From contig NZ_CP084098.1 in the NCBI RefSeq assembly GCF_036345015.1, positions 1-64,000 on the forward strand: a stretch of 64,000 nt of DNA, given 5' to 3'. The first letter of the stretch is position 1, and each line of letters begins with the position of its first letter. This DNA is from Cyanobacterium sp. Dongsha4. Lineage in GTDB: Bacteria > Cyanobacteriota > Cyanobacteriia > Cyanobacteriales > Cyanobacteriaceae. The notes below the pieces were generated by a model. That model was not told where the DNA came from, did no database searches, and saw nothing but the letters and a program-made list of their open reading frames with translations. Made by a program: the position numbers and the translations under genes. Positions 16,737-39,722 of the stretch are shown here, piece after piece.

Positions 16737-16808
16737 GCCTTTGTAGCTCAGTGGTAGAGCACACCCTTGGTAAGGGTGAGGTCACGAGTTCAATCCTCGT
16801 CAAAGGCT
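16737..16808 (+). tRNA. tRNA-Thr (GGT), homing target of the adjacent CAST
   Basis: A 72-nt tRNA. Acceptor GCCTTTG pairs with CAAAGGC, the anticodon stem CACCC/GGGTG encloses TTGGTAA with anticodon GGT at 16769-16771, and the T arm contains CGAGTTCAATCCTCG. CCA is not encoded. Bases 16779-16795 (AGGTCACGAGTTCAATC) are an exact 17-nt match to the detached spacer at 16970-16986, and the three bases before them, 16776-16778, are GTG, which fits the GTN PAM of Cas12k. Confidence 0.96.
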
Positions 16809-16854
16809 CTTTACTAAACGGTTATAATTGCTTGTCGATATATTTGTTTACTAT

Positions 16855-16963
16855 CGAATAACATTTTATCTGTTATCGTTAACAAATTGTTGTCATCTTA
16901 ACGAATTAACTGTCGTCTTAACAAATTGCTGTCGCTGAATAATCGTTAACAAATTAAATGTCA
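16855..16963 (-). repeat. CAST end, cas12k/CRISPR side (five TnsB-type end repeats)
   Basis: Five copies of an 18-bp word TTAACAnnTTnnnTGTCn at 16858, 16879, 16898, 16918 and 16946. They correspond in reverse complement to the four repeats of the opposite end (24787-24957). The segment CGAATAACATTTTATCTG from 16855 mirrors the outermost 24.94-kb repeat. V-K CAST ends are known to be built from such repeats bound by TnsB. The tip may be the TGTCGA at 16833 or may have lost its TGT at 16855. Confidence 0.85.
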
Positions 16964-16969
16964 TTTTAT

Positions 16970-16996
16970 GATTGAACTCGTGACCTCTTTCAATCC
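16970..16996 (-). CRISPR. Delocalised homing repeat-spacer unit targeting tRNA-Thr
   Basis: On the minus strand a partial CRISPR repeat ending GGATTGAAAG (16987-16996) is followed by the 17-nt spacer AGGTCACGAGTTCAATC (16970-16986), which is identical to tRNA-Thr 16779-16795. The partial repeat matches the end of the local array repeat in most of its last ten bases. Placement between the array and the transposon end, a 17-nt match to a tRNA gene and a GTN PAM are the published signs of V-K CAST chromosomal homing. The target lies 54 bp (PAM to the TGTCGA tip), close to known insertion spacings. Confidence 0.88.
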
Positions 16997-17053
16997 ACAT
17001 ATATATCTATTATAATTATAGCCATTTTTGTATTTTGCTGTTTTATGATGATC

Positions 17054-17163
17054 CTTTCGATCGCACCGAGAAGTAAACTCATCTGCAACCTGTATCACTT
17101 GCGTGGTTTACTTCTAGCCTGATTGTACTTTCGATCGCACTGGGAAGTAAACTCATCTGCAAC
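17054..17163 (-). CRISPR. Minimal CRISPR array, two 36-nt repeats
   Basis: Two direct copies of a 36-nt repeat at 17128-17163 and 17054-17089, differing at two positions, separated by a 38-nt spacer (17090-17127). Read on the minus strand, each begins GTTGCAGATGAGTTTACTTC and ends GCGATCGAAAG, the GAAAG ending usual for V-K repeats. The next unit on the same strand is the degenerate homing repeat at 16987. The spacer itself contains GTTTACTTCT, echoing the repeat. There is no room for a tracrRNA between the array and the cas12k remnant. Confidence 0.8.
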
Positions 17164-17196
17164 TGCCATCGAGTTCACTGGTTGCTTTGACTCTAT

Positions 17197-18079
17197 TCAA
17201 CCCATGATAATATTAGGATTACCCTGATATTTAACTCTACTAGGACGAGGAAAAGACTGATGTAAATTTTTCTGACTGGTCTTTTTCCGTTTAAGGCACT
17301 GCTTCTGATTATCATTTAGAGAAGGTTTCTTCTCCATACTTTCGATAATCTTAGATACTTGAGTTAGTTTCTCCTGTCAAACCTCCTGTGTACCCTCATT
17401 CATCGGTTAGTAAACGGGTTACTCTCAGTGAGAAGATATTTCTGCAATAACTTGGCTTCATTTTCATCTTTAGGTACATTTTGAGACGCAGTGATAAGAG
17501 TATTTAACCATTGTTGATCACTTAAATTTCTACCTTTAGGTAATCTGGCTTCAATCTGCTTTTCCAGTCTCTCTATTTCTATCTCCGTCTTGCGGTAAAG
17601 TTTGTCAAATTTATCCCTTTGTTCAGGTTGAGTAGGTATCTTTTGATTATGCTTAATCAAATAAGTGATAGCCGTTTTTTCTAAAATATCACTACTGTCA
17701 CGATGCCTTTGAAATAAATACTTATGCTTTTCTTCTGTCTTTTTATTAGATATTTGGTTGAGAATTATCTGAGCTTGAGCTTATGTTGTGACGCTAACCA
17801 AGAAGCAAAGATATAATTAACTAGGTTAATGGCTGAACCATAAAAATTACTTGGTAAGCCTGTGAAGGGGGGAACTTTTTTCAGAGTAGCACATAAATCT
17901 TTAACAATATCCGAAGGCATTTTTCCTTTATCCTGCCATTGAGACAAATCAGGATGCTCCCCCACTTGTCTTATCAATTCCGTCATCAGTGGGGTATATT
18001 GTTCCGCCATATATTGCCAGAGCCTTTGGCGGGTTTGTTCCGGGGCGATTAACTGGCAACAGATAGTTTTAATTGTCAT
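17197..18079 (-). pseudogene. cas12k: cas12k remnant (type V-K effector), three fragments
   Basis: Three pieces resemble Cas12k in order. Piece 1 starts at ATG 18079 (MTIKTICCQLIAPEQTRQRL to NYIFASWLASQHKLK). Piece 2, in another frame from about 17770 to 17400, has ILEKTAITYLIKHNQKI and RLEKQIEARLPKGRNLS. Piece 3, about 17365-17197, has ESMEKKPSLNDNQKQCLKRK and RVKYQGNPNIIMG, then stops. Compared with the ~640-residue family, one frameshift, at least two internal deletions and loss of the whole C-terminal RuvC-like half are evident. It cannot give a working effector. It lies divergently to the cvkR gene, as in intact systems. Confidence 0.88.
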
Positions 18080-18085
18080 AACTTT

Positions 18086-18105
18086 AAAATAACATATTGT
18101 TTTTA
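18086..18105. promoter_or_regulatory. Candidate CvkR operator in the cas12k-cvkR intergenic region
   Basis: The 91-bp divergent spacer contains an imperfect palindrome AACATATTGTT at 18091-18101. As I recall, CvkR of Anabaena binds a WnnACATnATGTnnW motif in cas12k promoters; the site here differs from that at one core base. The motif is seen; the function is inferred. Confidence 0.45.
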
Positions 18106-18170
18106 TAAATAGCAAGATAATGGTAAACTTAATTGATAAATTATTGTTTTCGAGTAGTACAATATAGATT

Positions 18171-18632
18171 ATGGATAAACAGTTTTTTACAAGCAAAGAA
18201 GCGGCAACCATTGCAGGATTAACTTATCGTCAGGTGGAATACTGGCGTAAGAAGGAGATTATTGTGCCAACGGTTAATACTGAAGGTAGTGGTCACAATG
18301 TCTATTATTCTCTGTCTGAGCTTTGGCAGTTAGCCTTAATGGGCTATCTGTTAGATATGGGCTTGGATTTTAAGGTTTGTTCTCAAATATTGGGTGAATT
18401 TAAGGAACGCCATGAAGAACTAATGAAACATCCTCTTGATTTCCCCCACCTTAAGTACACTTTATGTCCCCATCCAGAAAAGGGCTTGACTCTTACCCAT
18501 CTTTCTGCCATTGAAATAACCAAGGCTTTAATGAGGGGTGAGAGTATTCTGATGTTGTGGACGGAGAATGTTAATCAAAGGCTTATTGAAGGTTTATCCC
18601 TCGTTTTAACTCCAAAAAAAAACCTTTGTTGA
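18171..18632 (+). CDS. MerR-family regulator, CvkR-like
   Basis: A 153-residue protein with an N-terminal MerR helix-turn-helix: FTSKEAATIAGLTYRQVEYW followed by RKKEIIVPTVNTEGSGHNVY and LSELWQLALMGYLLDMGLDF. The rest (about 80-153) is a helical dimerisation part without effector cysteines typical of metal sensors. Position and orientation, divergent from cas12k inside a V-K CAST, match CvkR, the MerR-type repressor of V-K systems. The frame is intact although its usual target is broken. It ends 7 bp before hsdR, so it may now be co-transcribed with, and influence, the R-M genes. Confidence 0.82.
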   Translation: MDKQFFTSKEAATIAGLTYRQVEYWRKKEIIVPTVNTEGSGHNVYYSLSELWQLALMGYLLDMGLDFKVCSQILGEFKERHEELMKHPLDFPHLKYTLCPHPEKGLTLTHLSAIEITKALMRGESILMLWTENVNQRLIEGLSLVLTPKKNLC

Positions 18633-18639
18633 CAAGGAA

Positions 18640-21099
18640 ATGAATGAAGCAGAAACTAGAGCTAAGTTAATTGATCCAACGTTACATCAAAGGGGATGGA
18701 CAGAAGATCATATTCGTAGGGAAGAAACGGCGGGGAGTATCGTTATTATTGATGATCAGCCCCGTAAATTGGGTAAGGGTAGGGTTGACTATATCTTAAG
18801 GTTAAGATTATCAGAAACAACTCAACCCGTCGCAGTGGCAATTATCGAAGCGAAGGCAGAATATGCACCGCCGAATCAAGGTTTAGAACAGGTGAAACGT
18901 TATGGCAAGTTGTCGAATGTGCCTTTTGTTTATAGTTCTAATGGTCATTTATTTGTGGAATATGACGCTTTTACGGGAAAAACCAGTAAGCCTAAAACGT
19001 TGAGTCAGTTTCCTACTCCTCAAGATTTACAGGCTAGGTATGAACAACATAAGGGTTTTAAGTTAGATGCGGAAATAGCGAAACCTTTATTAACTCCCTA
19101 TCGTGGTGGGGAAGCGTCAAGGCGATACTATCAGGATGCGGCGATTCGAGCGGTATTTGAGAAGATTGCTTCTTGTTATGAGGGTAATGAGGCTTTAAGG
19201 GCTTTATTGAGTTTGGCTACTGGTGCAGGGAAAACCTATATTGCGACTCAAATTCTCTGTCGTATAGCCGATGCAGGACAGTTAAGACGGGCTTTATTTA
19301 TCTGTGACAGAACCGAATTAAGGGATCAAGCTAGTGCGGCTTTAAAGGGGATTTTTGGGGATGATGTGGCGGTGATTTCGGGTAAGAATCCTCAGAAAAA
19401 TGCACGGATTTTAGTGGCTACCTATCAAACTTTAGATGTAGATGATTCCCCCCAACCCTTAATTACAGATGATCCCCCCCAACCCCCCTTAATAAGGGGG
19501 GAGAAGACAAAACAAGTCCCCCTTAGCAAGGGGGATAAAGGGGGATCAAATTTCTTAGTCAATAATTATCCCGAAAATTACTTCAGTCATATCATTATAG
19601 ATGAGTGTCATCGATCGGCGTGGGGTAAATGGTCATTAGTTTTAACTCGTAATCCTGAAGCGGTGCAAATTGGTTTAACTGCTACTCCTCGCAAGTTAGA
19701 CACTACCGAAGACACCCCCGAAGTGAGGGAAGATTTACAGATTACGGCGGATAATGTCCGTTATTTTGGTGAGCCTGTTTATGAGTATGATATTGGACAA
19801 GGTATTGAGGATGGTTATTTAGCGGTTTGTTCTATTCATCCTCGTAATATCAATTTAGATCATACGGGTATCACTATTGAGGAGATTTTGGCACGGAATC
19901 CAGTGGATAGTATTACAGGGCAACCCGTCACCGAGGAGGAGATTCGAGAGCGTTATGAGTGTACTAGCTATGAGCGTCGTATAGAGCTTCCCGATCGAGT
20001 TTTAGTGATGTGCAAAGACTTATTCTCGGCTTTAGTACAAAGGGGCAAACCTGAGCAAAAAACTGTTATCTTCTGTGTCAGTGATAAACACGCTGATGAG
20101 GTGGCTATTACCATGAATAATATTTATGTGGATTGGTGTGGTCAAAATAACCGTCAACCGTTGCCTGATTATGCTTTTAAATGTACGGCAAAAAGTTCTG
20201 GTAATGATTATTTACCTGATTTAAAGGAGTCTTCGAGAAGTCATTTTATCGCTACTACGGTGGATTTGTTGACTACTGGGGTGGATGTGCCTCCGTTGGA
20301 AAACATTGTCTTTTTCCGTTATATGCGATCGCCTCTTACTTTTTATCAGATGATTGGTAGGGGTACAAGGTTACATCCGCCTTCGGGTAAGTTGATGTTT
20401 CGGGTTTATGACTATACCAATGCTACTCGTTTATTTGGGGTGGAGTTTTTGACTAAGTTATCACCCCGTAAGGATGATAAGACAGGCAATAAAGTTAAGG
20501 AGAAGGGGGGTAGTTATAATGTGGAATCTCAAAAAATTATTACTGTGGAAGGTTTTGATGTACGCATTAGTGCAGGGCAAAAGTCTATTTTAACGATGGT
20601 AAATGGTGAGACGATTCCGGTGAGTGTGGAGGAATACCGAGAAAGGTTAGGGAAACGGTTAATTGAGGAGGTGTCGAATATTGCTCTATTTCGAGAGATT
20701 TGGATTAAGCCTAATACCCGTAATCAGTTAATGAGTATTTTACCTGATGGGGGGCGATCGCCTTTAGTATTAAGAGCAGTATCGGAGTTGGAAGACTATG
20801 ATTTGTTTGATATTCTAGGGGAATTGGGTTATGGTATTCAGTTACGCACCCGTAAACAACGGGCAGAAGCCTTTGAGTATAAGCAAGAAAAATGGTTAGA
20901 AATGATGCCAGAAGCCACAGGAAAGACTATTAAAGCCATTACAGCTCAATTTGCTCAAAATGGAACGGAGGAGCTAGAAAACCCTAAATTATTTCAGTTA
21001 CCAATGGTGAAAAAAGCAGGGGGAATCGGTGCTTTAAAAGAGTTTGGCGATCCTAAAGAGATATTATTAGAGACTAAAATGAGGTTATTTGCGGCATAA
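18640..21099 (+). CDS. hsdR: Type I restriction endonuclease subunit HsdR
   Basis: An 819-residue ATP-dependent translocase/nuclease subunit. The N-terminal nuclease domain (about 1-120) shows GKGRVDYILRL and VAVAIIEAKAE, the D and ExK of the PD-(D/E)XK fold. The SF2 helicase motor has LATGAGKTYIA (Walker A, about 190), IIIDECHRSAWGKW (motif II), LTATP, and the later TGVDVPPLENIVF and QMIGRGTRL. A proline- and lysine-rich insert at residues about 268-305 is encoded by a repeat (see 19444-19548). First gene of the R-M island, after cvkR. With HsdM and HsdS it would cut DNA lacking the cognate adenine methylation. Confidence 0.92.
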   Translation: MNEAETRAKLIDPTLHQRGWTEDHIRREETAGSIVIIDDQPRKLGKGRVDYILRLRLSETTQPVAVAIIEAKAEYAPPNQGLEQVKRYGKLSNVPFVYSSNGHLFVEYDAFTGKTSKPKTLSQFPTPQDLQARYEQHKGFKLDAEIAKPLLTPYRGGEASRRYYQDAAIRAVFEKIASCYEGNEALRALLSLATGAGKTYIATQILCRIADAGQLRRALFICDRTELRDQASAALKGIFGDDVAVISGKNPQKNARILVATYQTLDVDDSPQPLITDDPPQPPLIRGEKTKQVPLSKGDKGGSNFLVNNYPENYFSHIIIDECHRSAWGKWSLVLTRNPEAVQIGLTATPRKLDTTEDTPEVREDLQITADNVRYFGEPVYEYDIGQGIEDGYLAVCSIHPRNINLDHTGITIEEILARNPVDSITGQPVTEEEIRERYECTSYERRIELPDRVLVMCKDLFSALVQRGKPEQKTVIFCVSDKHADEVAITMNNIYVDWCGQNNRQPLPDYAFKCTAKSSGNDYLPDLKESSRSHFIATTVDLLTTGVDVPPLENIVFFRYMRSPLTFYQMIGRGTRLHPPSGKLMFRVYDYTNATRLFGVEFLTKLSPRKDDKTGNKVKEKGGSYNVESQKIITVEGFDVRISAGQKSILTMVNGETIPVSVEEYRERLGKRLIEEVSNIALFREIWIKPNTRNQLMSILPDGGRSPLVLRAVSELEDYDLFDILGELGYGIQLRTRKQRAEAFEYKQEKWLEMMPEATGKTIKAITAQFAQNGTEELENPKLFQLPMVKKAGGIGALKEFGDPKEILLETKMRLFAA
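19444..19548. repeat. Palindromic GC-rich repeat inserted in frame in hsdR
   Basis: About 105 bp of C- and G-run palindromes inside hsdR: CCCCCCTTAATAAGGGGGG near 19485-19503 and TCCCCCTTAGCAAGGGGGA near 19517-19535, bordered by GATCCCCCC and GGGGGATC. Such CCCCC/GGGGG elements are common between cyanobacterial genes. Here the reading frame is kept and about 35-38 residues are added between the helicase motifs Ia and II. Confidence 0.8.
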
Positions 21100-21112
21100 G
21101 GAGTTAAAAACG

Positions 21113-21349
21113 ATGAGTAACATTTCACCTACTTTACTTGATCAAATTCAAGAAATGAATGTTAATGAAAAGCTAGAATTGATGGTTTTTTTAGCTAATT
21201 CAATTAAAAATAATCAACAAAAAATGATAAATATTTCTGAAAAAAAAGGTTCTTTAAGTAGATTTATTGGGACTGGTAAAGGTTGTTATCTAACTCCTAA
21301 AGATGCTGATAATTTTATTCGTCAGGAGCGTGATAAATGGGATTATTAG
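21113..21349 (+). CDS. Putative antitoxin of a PIN-domain toxin pair
   Basis: A 78-residue protein if started at ATG 21113, which has AAGGAG eight bases upstream; a TTG-started form from 21089 is less likely. The N-terminal half is helical (LLDQIQEMNVNEKLELMVFL) and the C-terminal part, SRFIGTGKGCYLTPKDADNF, resembles the toxin-wrapping tails of antitoxins. Its end overlaps the PIN gene by 13 bp, a typical toxin-antitoxin layout. No DNA-binding fold is certain. It lies between hsdR and hsdS, in the same direction. Confidence 0.7.
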   Translation: MSNISPTLLDQIQEMNVNEKLELMVFLANSIKNNQQKMINISEKKGSLSRFIGTGKGCYLTPKDADNFIRQERDKWDY

Positions 21350-21783
21350 AAGTTATTAAAGGTAAAAAAATTTATTTAGATACTAATATTTTTATTTATG
21401 CTGTCGAAGGCTATGAAGAATATTTAGAACATTTAGACTTGTTATTTAATTATTTAGAACATGGTCTTTTACAAGCTATTACCAGTGAGTTGAGCCTGTC
21501 AGAAGTTTTGGTTAAACCAATGATAGATGAAAATATTCATCTACAAAATATTTATCAAGATATGATTCAAACTTCTTCTAGTTTAGAGGTAATAAACATT
21601 GATAGAAAAATCCTAATAGAGTCAGCAAACATAAGAAGCAAAACGAAAATTAAGTTACCTGATTCTATTCATGGGGCTACCGCAATTTTCAATAATTGTT
21701 CCGATTTTTTAACTAATGACAAACAGTTAAATTTATTACCTGATATTAACGTTATTATTTTGGAGGATTTACTGAATAAATGA
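21337..21783 (+). CDS. PIN-domain toxin (VapC-like ribonuclease)
   Basis: A 148-residue PIN protein. The acidic residues expected for a Mg-dependent RNase are present: IYLDTNIFIYA near residue 12, SELSLSEVLVKP near 50, and KLPDSIHGATAIFNNCSDFL near 110, followed by TNDKQL. It would cleave RNA unless held by the overlapping upstream antitoxin. Toxin-antitoxin pairs often sit inside R-M islands and may stabilise them. It overlaps hsdS by 4 bp, so it is probably translated with it. Confidence 0.85.
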   Translation: MGLLEVIKGKKIYLDTNIFIYAVEGYEEYLEHLDLLFNYLEHGLLQAITSELSLSEVLVKPMIDENIHLQNIYQDMIQTSSSLEVINIDRKILIESANIRSKTKIKLPDSIHGATAIFNNCSDFLTNDKQLNLLPDINVIILEDLLNK

Positions 21784-22397
21784 CTAAAAATAAGCACAAT
21801 TTACCTGATGGTTGGCAATGGGTTAAATTAGGTGATGTTTGTGAGATTATTAATGGTTCAACCCCAAAATCGACAATAGATGAATATTGGAATGGTGATA
21901 TAGTATGGATTACACCTACTGATTTAGGACAATTATCAACGCCAATCATTAAAGATTCTCTAAGAAAAATAACAGAGAAAGGTTATAAAAGCTGTAATAC
22001 AAATATTGTACCTAAAGGATCAATAATTTTTTCTTGTAGAGCACCAATAGGTCATATTGGAATAGCAGATGTTTCTCTGTGTACGAATCAAGGTTGTAAA
22101 AGTTTTGTGTTAAAAGAGAATATAGATCAATGGTTTCTTTATTATTATATTAAAGAATCAGTCCCTGAGTTACAGTCGTTAGGTAGTGGAGCAACTTTTA
22201 AAGAAATTTCTAAGTCTAAACTAGCTACTTTTCCGATTCTGTTACCGCCGATAGATGAACAAAAACGCATCGCATCGATACTGAATGAGCAAATGTCAGC
22301 AGTGGAAAGGGCAAGGAAAGCCGCAGAAGCTCAACTGGAAGCAATAAATCAACTACCATCCGCCTTATTAAGACGTGCCTTTAATGGAGAATTATAA
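21780..22397 (+). CDS. hsdS: Type I specificity subunit HsdS, half-length
   Basis: A 205-residue protein with one target-recognition domain (about 8-160: LPDGWQWVKLGDVCEIINGS, GDIVWITPTDL, PKGSIIFSCRAPIGHIGIA, then FPILLPPIDEQKRIASIL) and one long helical spacer (about 160-205). Full HsdS has two recognition domains and about 400 residues. Half-size forms are known to dimerise and read a palindromic interrupted site, so this one may do the same. No second hsdS or inverted repeats for shuffling are present. The gene sits between the PIN toxin and a small ORF leading to hsdM. Confidence 0.88.
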   Translation: MTKNKHNLPDGWQWVKLGDVCEIINGSTPKSTIDEYWNGDIVWITPTDLGQLSTPIIKDSLRKITEKGYKSCNTNIVPKGSIIFSCRAPIGHIGIADVSLCTNQGCKSFVLKENIDQWFLYYYIKESVPELQSLGSGATFKEISKSKLATFPILLPPIDEQKRIASILNEQMSAVERARKAAEAQLEAINQLPSALLRRAFNGEL

Positions 22398-22399
22398 CC

Positions 22400-22645
22400 A
22401 TGACTAAAGTAACAGTATCAAAAGCCCGAATCTTTGAAGAAGAATATCCTTATATAAGTCGCTTTGTGCAAGAGCAAGGAAAAATAGAGGTAGGCTATGC
22501 TGAAGGGCATCCTCCCTTCTTTGTGGTTGCTTACGATGAAGGCGGTACAATCTTTGAGGGTAAAGAAGAATATAACTCAATGGATAAAGCCTTTGCAGAC
22601 TTAGAAAATGGTATCAAAGAATTTATGGAGAAAAATGGACTATGA
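22400..22645 (+). CDS. Small acidic protein between hsdS and hsdM
   Basis: An 81-residue acidic protein (EEEYPYISRFVQEQGKIEVG, then FFVVAYDEGGTIFEGKEEYN). It is tightly packed: 2 bp after hsdS and overlapping hsdM by 4 bp (ATGA), so it is translated as part of the R-M operon. I do not recognise a family. Its acidic character would allow a DNA-mimic or assembly role, but that is speculation. The frame and ribosome spacing support it as a real gene. Confidence 0.7.
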   Translation: MTKVTVSKARIFEEEYPYISRFVQEQGKIEVGYAEGHPPFFVVAYDEGGTIFEGKEEYNSMDKAFADLENGIKEFMEKNGL

Positions 22646-24189
22646 GCAGTAAAAACGGTAAAAACAACATCAAACAATTTAACACCCAACAAAGCCTCAA
22701 CAGCTATATTAAAGGTATCTGTGACATTATGAGGCGATCGAACTGTACCAGTGCCTTACAATACGTTCCCGAATTAACATGGTTGTTATTTTTGCGTATC
22801 CTTGATGACATCGAACAACAAGAAGCTGAAGGTATGGAAGTATTAGGCTTAGACTTTCATTACTCCCTTGAATACCCTTACCGTTGGCAAGATTGGGCAT
22901 CTCCTAACGGCACAAAACGGCTAGAGTTAACCATGAGTGGCAACTTAGGGGATTTTATGAACTTCGTTAACGGCGGTTACGACAATGACGGTAAACCCTT
23001 TGGCTTGTTACCCACCCTCAAAACCTTAAAAGATAAACCGAAAGCCACCCCTAGACAAAAAATTATCAGCGAAGTTCTCTCTGCTACTGATAAAGTAAGA
23101 ATTGATAGTGAGCGTAACTTACTAGATGTCTTAGATAAAGTCCACGAAATCCGCAACGTTGACGATACCCACATCTTCCCCATATCCCAAGTATATGAAG
23201 GGTTACTGTTGAAGATGGGGGAGAAAAATAACGATGGTGGGCAATTCTTTACCCCTAGAGAAGTAATAAGGGCGATTGTTACTGCTATAAATCCCCAAAT
23301 CGGAGAAACCGTCTATGATCCAGCCAGTGGTACAGGAGGCTTCCTTGCCCAAACCTACGAACATATTAGCAATCAATTAGGGGATGACATCACCGCCGAA
23401 CAATTAGAGACGCTTAAACATCAAACCTTTTACGGTAGAGAAAAAGAAAACCTGATTTATCCCATCGCCTTAGCGAACCTTATGTTACACGGTATTGATC
23501 AACCGAACCTATGGCATGGTAACACCTTAACAGGTAGTGCCGTCTATGGCGACTTATTTAAAAATGCCCCTCAATTATTTGATGTTATCCTCACTAATCC
23601 GCCTTTTGGGGGTAAAGAACATAAAGAAGTACAAGCCAAGTTTAGTTATAAAACCAGTGCCACTCAAGTTCTTTTTTTACAACACTTAATTGACAGTCTC
23701 AATCATAACGGTAGATGCGGAGTCGTGTTAGATGAAGGGGTATTATTCCGCACCAATGAAACCGCCTTTGTGCAAACCAAGAAGAAACTACTCAATGATT
23801 GTGATTTATGGTGTATTGTCAGCCTTCCTGCGGGGACATTTGCGGCGGCTGGAGGGGGAGTTAAAGCCAATATTCTATTTTTCACCAAAGGTAAACCCAC
23901 TGAGAAAATTTGGTATTATGACTTATCTGAGGTGAAAGTTACTAAACGTCAACCCCTAACCTCTAAACACTTTGAGGAATTTTTAGAGTTACTCCCTGAT
24001 AGACAAGACAGTGAGAGAAGTTGGACTGTTACCCGTGAGGAAATAGAACAGAAAAACTATGATCTCAAAGCCGTCAATCCAAATATAAAAGTAGAGGAGG
24101 ACGATCAAACCCCTGAAGAACTGATACAATTCATAGAAACTAAAAGTCAAGAAGTACAACTTGTACTAAATAATCTAAGAAAAGGATAA
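22642..24189 (+). CDS. hsdM: Type I DNA adenine methyltransferase subunit HsdM
   Basis: A 515-residue N6-adenine methyltransferase. The N-terminal helical domain (about 15-150, with LQYVPELTWLLFLRILDDIE) is followed by the catalytic domain with motif I VYDPASGTGGFLAQ and motif IV ILTNPPFGGKEHKE, plus GGQFFTPREVIRAIV ahead of them. It methylates the site chosen by HsdS and is needed for both modification and restriction. Its stop (TAA) overlaps the start of the mrr fragment. No frame damage is visible, so the methylase is probably active. Confidence 0.94.
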   Translation: MSSKNGKNNIKQFNTQQSLNSYIKGICDIMRRSNCTSALQYVPELTWLLFLRILDDIEQQEAEGMEVLGLDFHYSLEYPYRWQDWASPNGTKRLELTMSGNLGDFMNFVNGGYDNDGKPFGLLPTLKTLKDKPKATPRQKIISEVLSATDKVRIDSERNLLDVLDKVHEIRNVDDTHIFPISQVYEGLLLKMGEKNNDGGQFFTPREVIRAIVTAINPQIGETVYDPASGTGGFLAQTYEHISNQLGDDITAEQLETLKHQTFYGREKENLIYPIALANLMLHGIDQPNLWHGNTLTGSAVYGDLFKNAPQLFDVILTNPPFGGKEHKEVQAKFSYKTSATQVLFLQHLIDSLNHNGRCGVVLDEGVLFRTNETAFVQTKKKLLNDCDLWCIVSLPAGTFAAAGGGVKANILFFTKGKPTEKIWYYDLSEVKVTKRQPLTSKHFEEFLELLPDRQDSERSWTVTREEIEQKNYDLKAVNPNIKVEEDDQTPEELIQFIETKSQEVQLVLNNLRKG

Positions 24190-24340
24190 TGTCAGAATCT
24201 TTACCTTCAATCCCCTCATATCAGTCTTTGATGTTGCCCATATTAACTATTGTTGCTGACGGAAGTGAATATAAATTATCAGAAGTCAGACAAACATTAG
24301 AAAATAAATTAGGGCTTAGTAACGAACAACTAGACTTAAA
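24189..24340 (+). pseudogene. Mrr-type restriction endonuclease, N-terminal fragment
   Basis: About 50 codons resemble the Mrr N-terminal winged helix: PSYQSLMLPILTIVADGSEY, KLSEVRQTLENKLGLSNEQL. The match stops at about 24338 where the sequence becomes the reverse strand of tnsB; the remaining ~30 codons of the open frame are read-through of that gene backwards. The nuclease domain is missing. It was probably the last gene of the cargo, cut by the deletion that removed tnsC and tniQ. Confidence 0.75.
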
Positions 24341-24689
24341 GGGCTTTAACTTGTGCTTTAACCGCAATCTGAGAACGATTAACTTTACTTCCTCCCCGAT
24401 TCGCTTCTATATACTGCTTTTTAATGAAATCAACTAAAACTGAATCTATACGATGTTGACCTTTGTCGGCTCTTTGACTTGAAGATAGACCGTTATTTCC
24501 TCCTTCTTCCCATTTTTTCACCATACGTTGCACTGTTCGACGGGAGCAATTTAACTTCTCACTCACTTCATCTAACTTTTTCCCATAAGAGATGCGATCG
24601 CACGGTTCCATTAAATAATTGATGAGTTCAATCTTCCTCTGGACATCTTAGGGGATGTCAACAGGGATTACATTCTCTTCTTTGCTCAT
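24336..24689 (-). pseudogene. tnsB: tnsB remnant (Tn7-like/V-K transposase), 5' end only
   Basis: The N-terminal DNA-binding part of a V-K TnsB: ATG at 24689, in-frame stop TAA at 24648-24650, then DVQRKIELINYLMEPCDR, KLNCSRRTVQRMVKKWEEGG, SSSQRADKGQHRID and GGSKVNRSQIAVKAQVKAL. The DDE catalytic domain and everything after residue ~115 are absent; the break at about 24338 abuts mrr. Together with the nonsense codon this makes the gene dead. It could be mistaken for an IS630-type HTH protein, but position and end repeats argue for TnsB. Confidence 0.82.
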
Positions 24690-24786
24690 ACTTATGTTTT
24701 ATAGAAACATAATGTTATTTTAACTGCATTATTATAAAGATGGCAACTATTGTGTTATAAATCGTCAAAAGTCAAATCAGAAGAAG

Positions 24787-24957
24787 TGACAGTTAATTTG
24801 TTAATAATCAGAATAATGACAACTAATTTGTTAAACCTATCTTTGATGATGAGGAGGGATCAAAGATGGTTATGATTGTTTAGGGAAGGGGATTTGAGGA
24901 GGAATTATCCCCATGACAAATAAAATGTTAAAGCGACAGATAAAATGTTATTCGACA
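24787..24957 (+). repeat. CAST end, tnsB side (four end repeats)
   Basis: Four copies of TGACAnnTAAnnTGTTAA at 24787, 24817, 24914 and 24934 (the last as CGACAGATAAAATGTTATTC). They are the reverse complement of the repeats at 16858-16963. The tip is TTCGACA, ending at 24957. A 79-bp spacer separates the inner and outer pairs. This arrangement is as expected for TnsB binding sites beside the tnsB gene. Confidence 0.85.
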
Positions 24958-25150
24958 ACTATCATATAATCATTATAAGTCAATTCTTAACATCTTTTTG
25001 TCTAAGTACCGGTAAGTATTTTAAACTCTTGCCTGTTGCTTATCCTTGGTGACACTTCTTTTTTCTCAACCCCTATTTAGTTTGAGCTATTTTATCAAGT
25101 ATTAAATTAAATACTAACTGTTAATTTTATTGAAAAAAATAGTATTAATA

Positions 25151-25924
25151 ATGATTACTTTACTGACAGATTTTGGTTTGCAAGATATTTATGTGGGAGT
25201 GATGAAAGGAATTATAAAAACAATTAATCCAGATATATATATTATTGATTTAACCCACGATATTCCCCCTCAAAATATCTCCGCCGCTAGTTTTGCTTTA
25301 GCAAATTCTGTGGATTTTTTTCCTGATGATACCATTCATTTAGCCATAGTTGATCCTACCGTTGGTAGTGACAGAAAAATAGTTGCGATCGCATTTGAAA
25401 AAGGTTATATAATATGTCCTAATAATGGCATAATAACAGGGGTTTTAAATAGGTATAAACCACAACAAATTTATGAGTTAACTAATAGTAATTATTGGCT
25501 TAATCAAATTCCTAGCAATACTTTTCATGGTAGAGATATATTTGCACCTATGACGGCTTATTTAAGTAAAGGTATCGGATTAGAAACTTTAGGTCATAAT
25601 CTTAATAAAGAAGATTTAGTGATTTTAGATGACATTTATCCCATAATTAAAGAAAAAGAAATAATCGGTTCAATACAATATATTGATACTTACGGTAATT
25701 TAATTACTAATATCACCGCTAAAATGTTAGAAAATAAATCTTGGTACGTACAAGAAGGAGAAAATAAAATTTTTCCTCAATCCACTTATAGCAACATTAA
25801 AAAGAAAGAATTACTTACCCTAATTGGTAGTCATGGATATGTAGAAATAGCCATTAATCAGGGCAATGCTAAAATGATTTTAAATAAAGAATATGGTGAT
25901 TTTATAACAGTAAAAATACAGTGA
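25151..25924 (+). CDS. SAM hydrolase / SAM hydroxide adenosyltransferase (DUF62)
   Basis: A 257-residue enzyme of the fluorinase-like family that splits S-adenosylmethionine to adenosine and methionine using hydroxide. Hallmarks are MITLLTDFGLQDIYVGVMKG at the N terminus, YIIDLTHDIPPQNI, AIVDPTVGSDRKIVAI and NTFHGRDIFAPMTAYL. I chose ATG 25151, which gives the family's standard start, over the in-frame TTG 21 bp upstream. No halogenase-specific evidence. First intact gene beyond the CAST. Confidence 0.9.
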   Translation: MITLLTDFGLQDIYVGVMKGIIKTINPDIYIIDLTHDIPPQNISAASFALANSVDFFPDDTIHLAIVDPTVGSDRKIVAIAFEKGYIICPNNGIITGVLNRYKPQQIYELTNSNYWLNQIPSNTFHGRDIFAPMTAYLSKGIGLETLGHNLNKEDLVILDDIYPIIKEKEIIGSIQYIDTYGNLITNITAKMLENKSWYVQEGENKIFPQSTYSNIKKKELLTLIGSHGYVEIAINQGNAKMILNKEYGDFITVKIQ

Positions 25925-38976: not shown

Positions 38977-39411
38977 ATGTTCGCAAAAGATGTTTCCAAT
39001 GAAATAGTTAAAAATGCTTTAATTAAAGATGGTTGGATGATTTTAGCAGATCTTTACACCATTGAATATGAAGATGATAACCTCTATGCCGATTTACTGG
39101 CACAAAAAACATTACTTGCTCAACAACTAAACCGTAAAATAGTAGTAGAAATAAAAAGTTTTTTAAATCCATCACCTATGAATGACTTTCAAAATGCTTT
39201 AGGTCAATATCTGCTGTATCGTGATTTTCTCAATTTTTCTCATAAAAATTATGAACTTTATTTAGCTGTAAAAAGCTCAGTATTCAATAGTTTTTTTCAA
39301 AGAAAATCCATATAGACAGTCATCAAACATTATGGGGTTGATTTTATCATATTTAATCAGAGTAAAGAGGAAATTATCTCATGGGTAAAATTATCAAATA
39401 TAGAGAATTAA
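38977..39411 (+). pseudogene. xisH: xisH interrupted by an in-frame TAG
   Basis: XisH, a small protein first found as an fdxN-element excision factor of Anabaena and now common in cyanobacteria. The N-terminal part is typical (MFAKDVSNEIVKNALIKDGW), with KIVVEIKSFLNPSPMNDFQN carrying a nuclease-like ExK motif. At 39313-39315 the frame hits TAG, then continues without shift as [20 protein letters not shown] to the expected end at 39411, overlapping xisI by 31 bp. A CAG to TAG change would explain it. The protein may be truncated by ~32 residues or translated by read-through. Confidence 0.8.
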
Positions 39412-39722
39412 TAAAAAATATACTAACCGAATATGATCAATTAGTTTATAAATCTCCTGATTATCAATCCGAAACTTCTCCAGTATTTGACGAAAATCAT
39501 GATCATTATCTTTGGTTAACTGTTGATTGGAAAGAAGATAAAAGACCAAAATCAACTCATATTCATATCCGTATAAAAAATGAAAAAATTTATATTGAAG
39601 AAGATTGGACAGAGGCAGATATTGCTAATGAATTATTAGAAAAAGGAGTGCCAAAAGAAGATATAGTATTAGCATTTCATGACCCAGAAACACGCAAATT
39701 AACAGATTTTGCCGTAGCCTAA
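39381..39722 (+). CDS. xisI: XisI-like protein
   Basis: A 113-residue XisI homologue: [80 protein letters not shown]. The family was named as a control factor for fdxN-element excision, but most cyanobacteria with xisH/xisI pairs have no such element; a toxin-antitoxin-like role has been considered for such pairs. The frame is intact and overlaps the end of the full-length xisH frame. Confidence 0.88.

Follow-up and report, generated by a model that had tools for sequence, protein, structure and literature searches.

The window, the 64,000-nt stretch of contig NZ_CP084098.1 of Cyanobacterium sp. Dongsha4 analysed here, holds an intact tRNA-Thr(GGT) gene (16737-16809, plus strand; called by ARAGORN and Rfam, with its end at 16809 or 16808) that is directed towards, and serves as the attachment gene of, an element of 8.1 kb, element A (~16852-24957). 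The left end of the element (16852-16969, plus strand) carries TnsB-type repeats and is 95-98% identical, over 110-bp stretches, to the left ends of two sister elements of the same genome (sites B and C) and of an element in G005, a genome from another genus of the family. Inward of it, minus-strand positions 16998-16970 read GTGGATTGAAAG followed by AGGTCACGAGTTCAATC, that is, a truncated repeat R* (16987-16998) and a 17-nt anchor spacer (16970-16986). A remnant CRISPR array of two repeats and one spacer (17046-17163) and a cas12k remnant (17200-18091) follow on the minus strand, with 36 bp between the array and the nearest open cas12k piece. Divergent to cas12k lies an open cvkR gene for a MerR-type repressor of 153 aa (18171-18632), whose best PDB match is Alr3614/CvkR (7xn2, E 9.1e-24), and 7 bp after it an open hsdR of 819 aa (18640-21099). 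The restriction-modification cargo continues with a PIN-domain gene (21337-21783, identified by Pfam), which overlaps an hsdS of 205 aa with a single specificity domain (21780-22397; the pair spans 21337-22397), hsdM (22642-24189) and an Mrr_N-domain fragment (24189-24341), all on the plus strand like cvkR and hsdR; the fragment is cut at the joint 24341/24342, where homology shifts from site C to site B. The five frames of at least 100 aa in 18171-24189 fall in families other than those of transposition genes. An N-terminal remnant of tnsB (24339-24704, minus strand) and the right end (24787-24957, minus strand), whose TnsB-type repeats terminate in TGTCGAATAAC and which shares 90-97% identity with its counterparts in G005 and at site B, complete the element.

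Decay, cargo and ends of element A

The cas12k remnant consists of three open pieces that align to ShCas12k aa 5-102, 174-277 and 392-450. They match the PADLOC Cas12k model at E 9.2e-41, 6.7e-34 and 1.1e-15 and PDB Cas12k at E 8.3e-29, 3.4e-20 and 1.9e-7, all significant PDB matches being Cas12k; for each piece the best-scoring PADLOC model carries the label Cas12j, Cas12k coming second, and the NCBIfam scores (135.7, 112 and 51.4 bits) lie below the whole-protein cut-off of 150. Judging by these alignments, the cas12k of element A is a pseudogene from which about half of the gene is gone. The tnsB remnant aligns to ShTnsB aa 42-142 and matches PDB TnsB (E 7.8e-28) by the N-terminus alone. 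No full-length cas12k was found in the five contigs of the genome, seven fragments lying at three places (A, C and a further site, D), nor any full-length tnsB, for which there are three partial matches at A, B and D, each with stops. The tracrRNA region of G005 gave no match within the window and one in the genome, which has 68% identity and adjoins the broken cas12k at site D. Since the G005 element has a tracrRNA, the absence of one from A is read as loss by deletion, and because of this loss A is described as the remnant of a type V-K CAST and not as a working member. With three cas12k fragments, the N-terminus of tnsB, no tracrRNA and a damaged left TGT, the element looks dead.

The dN/dS values of the cargo are low, both between A and G005 (hsdR 0.067, cvkR 0.129) and between A and site C (hsdM 0.058, hsdR 0.053). 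Selection on the cargo after the decay was nevertheless rejected as an explanation, because the dead cas12k pieces give low values as well (0.10-0.11, A against G005); most of the divergence thus predates the decay, and present function is not to be inferred from it. CvkR-like motifs, each with one mismatch, lie at the former promoters of cas12k (18089-18103) and tnsB (24704-24718). The window holds five matches to the CvkR operator against 3.85 expected, a number reached by 34 of 100 shuffles, and it is the placement of two of the five at former promoters that is suggestive.

At the right end of the element the terminal TGTCG is intact, while the left end is homologous to those of its relatives but has a terminal TGT that reads TAT or is missing after ACTAT. 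The original prediction had put the element end 54 bp from the PAM, taking TGTCGATA at 16833 as that end. This figure has to be revised: the left ends of G005, B and C, which start TGTCGAATAACATTTTATC in G005 and site B and TGTCGAGTAACAGC in site C, align to the window from TATCGAATAAC (16852) or CGAATAAC (16855), the window itself reading TATCGAATAACATTTTATC from 16852. On this homology the end would lie 73 bp from the PAM if TGT has become TAT, and 76 bp if the TGT has been lost after ACTAT; both distances fall within the range of 46-82 given in the accessible text of PMC9938897.

The motif ACTAT (16850-16854, plus strand, with a second copy at 24958-24962) could be a 5-bp target duplication or a coincidence. 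It stands on both sides of A only if the TGT was deleted, and the duplication is doubtful because only the right of the two flanks is part of a dispersed repeat. The 58 bp directly after the right end (24958-25015) are a piece of this IS-like repeat; the genome holds four further copies of it, and one adjoins a frame that appears transposase-like by eye. A rearrangement may have affected the right flank. Homology of the left flank to G001 extends to 16812, and the right-flank gene sits elsewhere in that genome; with no clean joint to be shown, a proof of the empty site from G001 was given up. A plasmid search matched 71 records, none over more than 80% of the query, and the 20 matches listed cover the tRNA part only. 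Outside the element, a gene for a SAM hydroxide adenosyltransferase occupies 25130-25921 and has a shorter second copy, 95% identical (G000:C1:92255-92881), and xisH and xisI are neighbours at 38977-39722.

The guide, its target and its relatives

Central to the interpretation of the element is the relation of its anchor to the neighbouring tRNA gene. The final 17 nt of the minus-strand segment are identical to positions 16779-16795 of tRNA-Thr(GGT), which form the anchor protospacer on the plus strand, and a GTG PAM (16776-16778) stands just before them. The identity is 17/17, or 18 nt with the final G of the repeat included, and beyond these 18 nt the guide site and the tRNA site differ immediately. 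The exact match and its PAM were as originally described, and the match is unique both in the window and in the genome: across 4.32 Mb the 17-mer occurs at two places, the anchor and tRNA-Thr, and the sole further match at up to 3 mismatches has 3. In a control, one of the 17 TTGAAAG sites in the 64-kb window has an inverted match (3 mismatches or fewer, up to 900 nt downstream), namely the anchor of element A, with 0 mismatches; none of the others shows one, a match beside unrelated repeats being what the original prediction had named as speaking against it. Likewise, the inverted exact 17-mers no more than 320 bp apart in the 64 kb comprise only two overlapping registers of the guide-tRNA match. 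A chance origin of this match is very unlikely.

The original reading of the anchor as the tRNA-directed, delocalised guide of a V-K CAST holds on several grounds: homology to Cas12k, TnsB and CvkR, end repeats on both sides, and a fit to the layout set out in the accessible text of PMC9938897. In that layout the tRNA gene stands towards the left end, R* measures ~12 nt, the anchor spacer 17 nt, the PAM is GTN and 46-82 nt lead to the end, and tnsB adjoins the right end (PMC9938897, Ziemann et al. 2023).

Equivalent guides were sought with the pattern TTGAAAG followed by AGGTCACGAGTTCAA, 2 mismatches being allowed, in 386 genomes of the phylum drawn from a larger group, and the pattern was found in four of them, namely the present genome, G005, G026 and G162. 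All four loci adjoin a tRNA-Thr(GGT) gene with a GTG PAM and a V-K end, at PAM-to-end distances of 73-76 bp (A), 68 bp (G005), 46 bp (G026) and 58 bp (G162); the loci were selected through the guide and so form no random sample, and the adjoining tRNA stood outside the search criteria. In G005 the guide and R* are unchanged from A, and the element has a full-length cas12k frame, five array repeats that are exact copies of G005's own repeat version, intact TGTCG ends and GGTAT on both sides, a perfect 5-bp duplication. The guide of G026 differs from that of A at positions 16 and 17, and its host tRNA carries the same allele, AGGTCACGAGTTCAAGT; the guide follows the tRNA allele of the host. That of G162 is one letter off from A and from its own tRNA. 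A scan of a named genome collection gave a single match, Tolypothrix campylonemoides VB511288, with spacer and tRNA-Thr(GGT) target identical to those of A; here a DDE-transposase gene now lies between the tRNA and the left end, and the cas12k frame of 549 aa starts at model position 99. The scan missed G005, G026 and G162 despite their fitting guides, the genome sets being of different release and near genomes perhaps left out. In sum, four other genomes have an equivalent guide next to tRNA-Thr(GGT), two of them the identical one and two a variant, with an R* that differs somewhat from that of A in G026, G162 and Tolypothrix. CAST homologues at tRNA-Thr, whose lack had been put forward as the second argument against the original prediction, thus exist. 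A pattern search of viral contigs gave 0 matches, to which little weight attaches since the pattern demanded GTTGAAAG whereas the R* of A has GATTGAAAG.

It had also been proposed that R* could be folded with a V-K tracrRNA, and here the outcome is mixed. The GUGGAUU of A's R* can pair with the AAUCCAC of the G005 tracrRNA anti-repeat, and with the anti-repeat AAUCCAUCCU and the R* AGGAUGGAUU of G162, R* and anti-repeat change together between G005 and G162. When judged by energy, the pairing was rejected as no better than shuffles, 225 of 500 shuffled R* being as good as the R*-tracr duplex of G005. The anti-repeat motif is present in 5 of 11 loci inspected, and R* is known for four of these; the best duplex lies elsewhere in two of the four (G008 and the second G005 element), which is discordant. 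The pairing would therefore give partial support, the co-change between G005 and G162 being a better sign than the energy.

Sister elements and differing guides

Anchors were read for 12 V-K elements: A, B, C and D, two each in G005 and G003, and one each in G026, G162, G008 and Tolypothrix. Of 14 loci scanned, eight yielded an anchor whose target lay no more than 900 bp away and differed by 2 mismatches at most, and separate readings gave the anchors of C, D, the second G003 copy and Tolypothrix; the count of 12 leaves out a second, unreadable G008 element, the V-K elements of G006 and other matches to cas12k, tnsB or cvkR. On this count the guide fits the adjoining tRNA with 0-1 mismatch in nine elements and does not match in three (C, D and the second G003 copy). 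The two V-K elements of G003 (L085; L086/L150) have equal cas12k scores and different guides; one lies at tRNA-Leu(GAG), and the other is without a tRNA found nearby. For the second G003 copy no guide match was found nearby, the best having 6-7 mismatches.

The present genome itself holds four decayed V-K elements, of which A and B have matching guides and C and D do not. The guide at site B matches tRNA-Thr(CGT) exactly, with a GTA PAM and 61 bp to the end. Site C (~3578190-3578330; G000:C1, L038/L039) carries the guide of B, yet lies at tRNA-Met(CAT), 61 bp from the corresponding position, with 5 mismatches and a TTA PAM; because unrelated guide-tRNA pairs already show 5-6 mismatches, C is not claimed as a proven near-cognate insertion. 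A deletion at site C has removed cvkR and parts of cas12k and hsdR, and the right end was not found within the stretch fetched. Site D (~1546600-1557232; G000:C1, L080/L081) is a broken V-K CAST at tRNA-Arg(ACG), to which its guide has 4 mismatches, with a GTT PAM and 63 bp; as in A, its left terminus has TAT in place of the TGT of relatives. The D guide is 1 mismatch from the 3' part of a tRNA-Leu(UAA)-like sequence, which we take to be an intron-bearing tRNA-Leu(UAA) and the best target of this guide; ARAGORN made no tRNA call there.

Over 110 bp the left ends of A and of B and C are 95-98% identical (98% between A and B), whereas the cassettes, which lie between the last end repeat and the array, differ. 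The cassette of A is close to that of G005, an element with a more distant body (88-93% in the cas12k pieces, 93% in hsdR); between A and C, hsdR is 97% and hsdM 98% identical. The simplest history would be one cassette replacement on the B/C branch. Going further, the exchanged cassettes on near-identical left ends, together with landings at near-cognate tRNAs (C and D), might make this genome a fossil record of guide switching, an idea we offer tentatively and regard as rather doubtful. If true, guide switching would account for V-K attachment sites that differ even among close relatives. The accessible text of PMC11406308 describes the use of attachment sites by V-K CASTs as unusually dynamic and differing within closely related CASTs, for reasons unknown, and four decayed V-K elements in one genome provide a concrete case.

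Origin of the placement and known systems

The favoured reading, to which we give a probability of roughly 0.93, is the RNA-guided homing of an ancestral V-K CAST to tRNA-Thr(GGT) by the guide formed of R* and anchor spacer, followed by decay. An ancestral type V-K CAST with type I restriction-modification cargo would have produced a short crRNA from R* and the anchor spacer; together with tracrRNA and Cas12k, this crRNA would have bound the GTG-flanked 17-bp protospacer of tRNA-Thr(GGT), and TniQ, TnsC and TnsB would have placed the element beyond the 3' end of the tRNA gene, 73-76 bp downstream. The tracrRNA, roughly half of cas12k and the greater part of the transposase operon would later have been lost to deletions. 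What is left would be a fixed island in which cvkR and the restriction-modification genes are open and the guide is probably inactive in the present genome. The biochemistry of guide and insertion in this account is presumed by analogy with studied V-K systems. According to the original prediction, the guide that placed the element is still readable. The readability of the guide stands; its placing role we infer, because the guides of C and D mismatch their adjoining tRNA and a readable guide is therefore not always the placing guide.

Given that three of the 12 elements have non-matching guides, replacement of the guide after insertion is possible in principle for A as well. By gene conversion or cassette exchange, A would then have acquired a guide that fits tRNA-Thr(GGT) without having placed the present copy. 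The differing guide cassettes on the closely similar left ends of A and B would fit such a history, as would the cassette that B and C have in common although C sits at tRNA-Met, C and B differing at 3 of the 14 outermost bases and then agreeing up to the array. However, the exchange would need to have delivered the one guide that fits the neighbouring tRNA, and G005 has the same guide and the same tRNA gene with a clean duplication, so that we consider later acquisition improbable. More improbable still is a guide in present use, its crRNA working with another CAST of the cell and A being non-autonomous: the guide, R* and the end repeats on both sides can still be read, cvkR has an open frame and CvkR-like motifs stand at both former promoters, but a full-length cas12k or tnsB was not found in the five contigs, the only tracrRNA-like match is the 68% one next to site D's broken cas12k, and the TGT of A's left terminus is damaged. 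Least of all do we credit the tRNA fragment as the att-site copy of an integrase-type island remnant, for although islands often use the 3' ends of tRNA genes, the copy is inverted, ends 14 bp short of the tRNA end, is preceded by a CRISPR-type repeat and is surrounded by V-K end repeats and remnants of Cas12k and TnsB, no integrase was found among the element frames scanned against Pfam, and this reading was rejected on orientation and context.

Homing by its own guide remains the preferred reading, and element A belongs to a known family. A literature search for Cas12k with tRNA-Thr found no paper, the main preprint on V-K attachment sites (Hsieh and Peters 2021) lying outside its coverage, and the use of tRNA-Thr by V-K CASTs may well be in print already. 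Element A is a clear fossil example in this family, of which homing guides are a known trait, and not a new kind of system. Its wider meaning is that the address of a CAST can outlive the machinery, decayed elements being recognisable and traceable by their guides.

As described in the accessible text of PMC9938897, the anchor-spacer unit of type V-K CASTs shares with A the R* of ~12 nt, the 17-nt spacer towards the left end and the GTN PAM in a tRNA gene, and the CASTs themselves share with it the spacing of 46-82 nt, the array, cas12k, the divergent cvkR and the tnsB by the right end; A differs in its damaged left TGT and in having cas12k, tracrRNA and transposase operon either broken or lost. 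The same text reports degenerate cas12k near CvkR-like genes, restriction-modification cargo and four known CvkR-HsdR fusions. Element A resembles these CvkR regulators beside degenerate cas12k, but it has cvkR and hsdR as two distinct frames with 7 bp between them. Another close counterpart is the V-K CAST of G005 (L035/L082), with the same tRNA gene, guide and R* and the same order of cvkR then hsdR; in contrast to A, it spans ~31 kb and has a full-length cas12k frame, a longer array, intact ends, a GGTAT duplication and an insertion at 68 bp instead of 73-76 bp.
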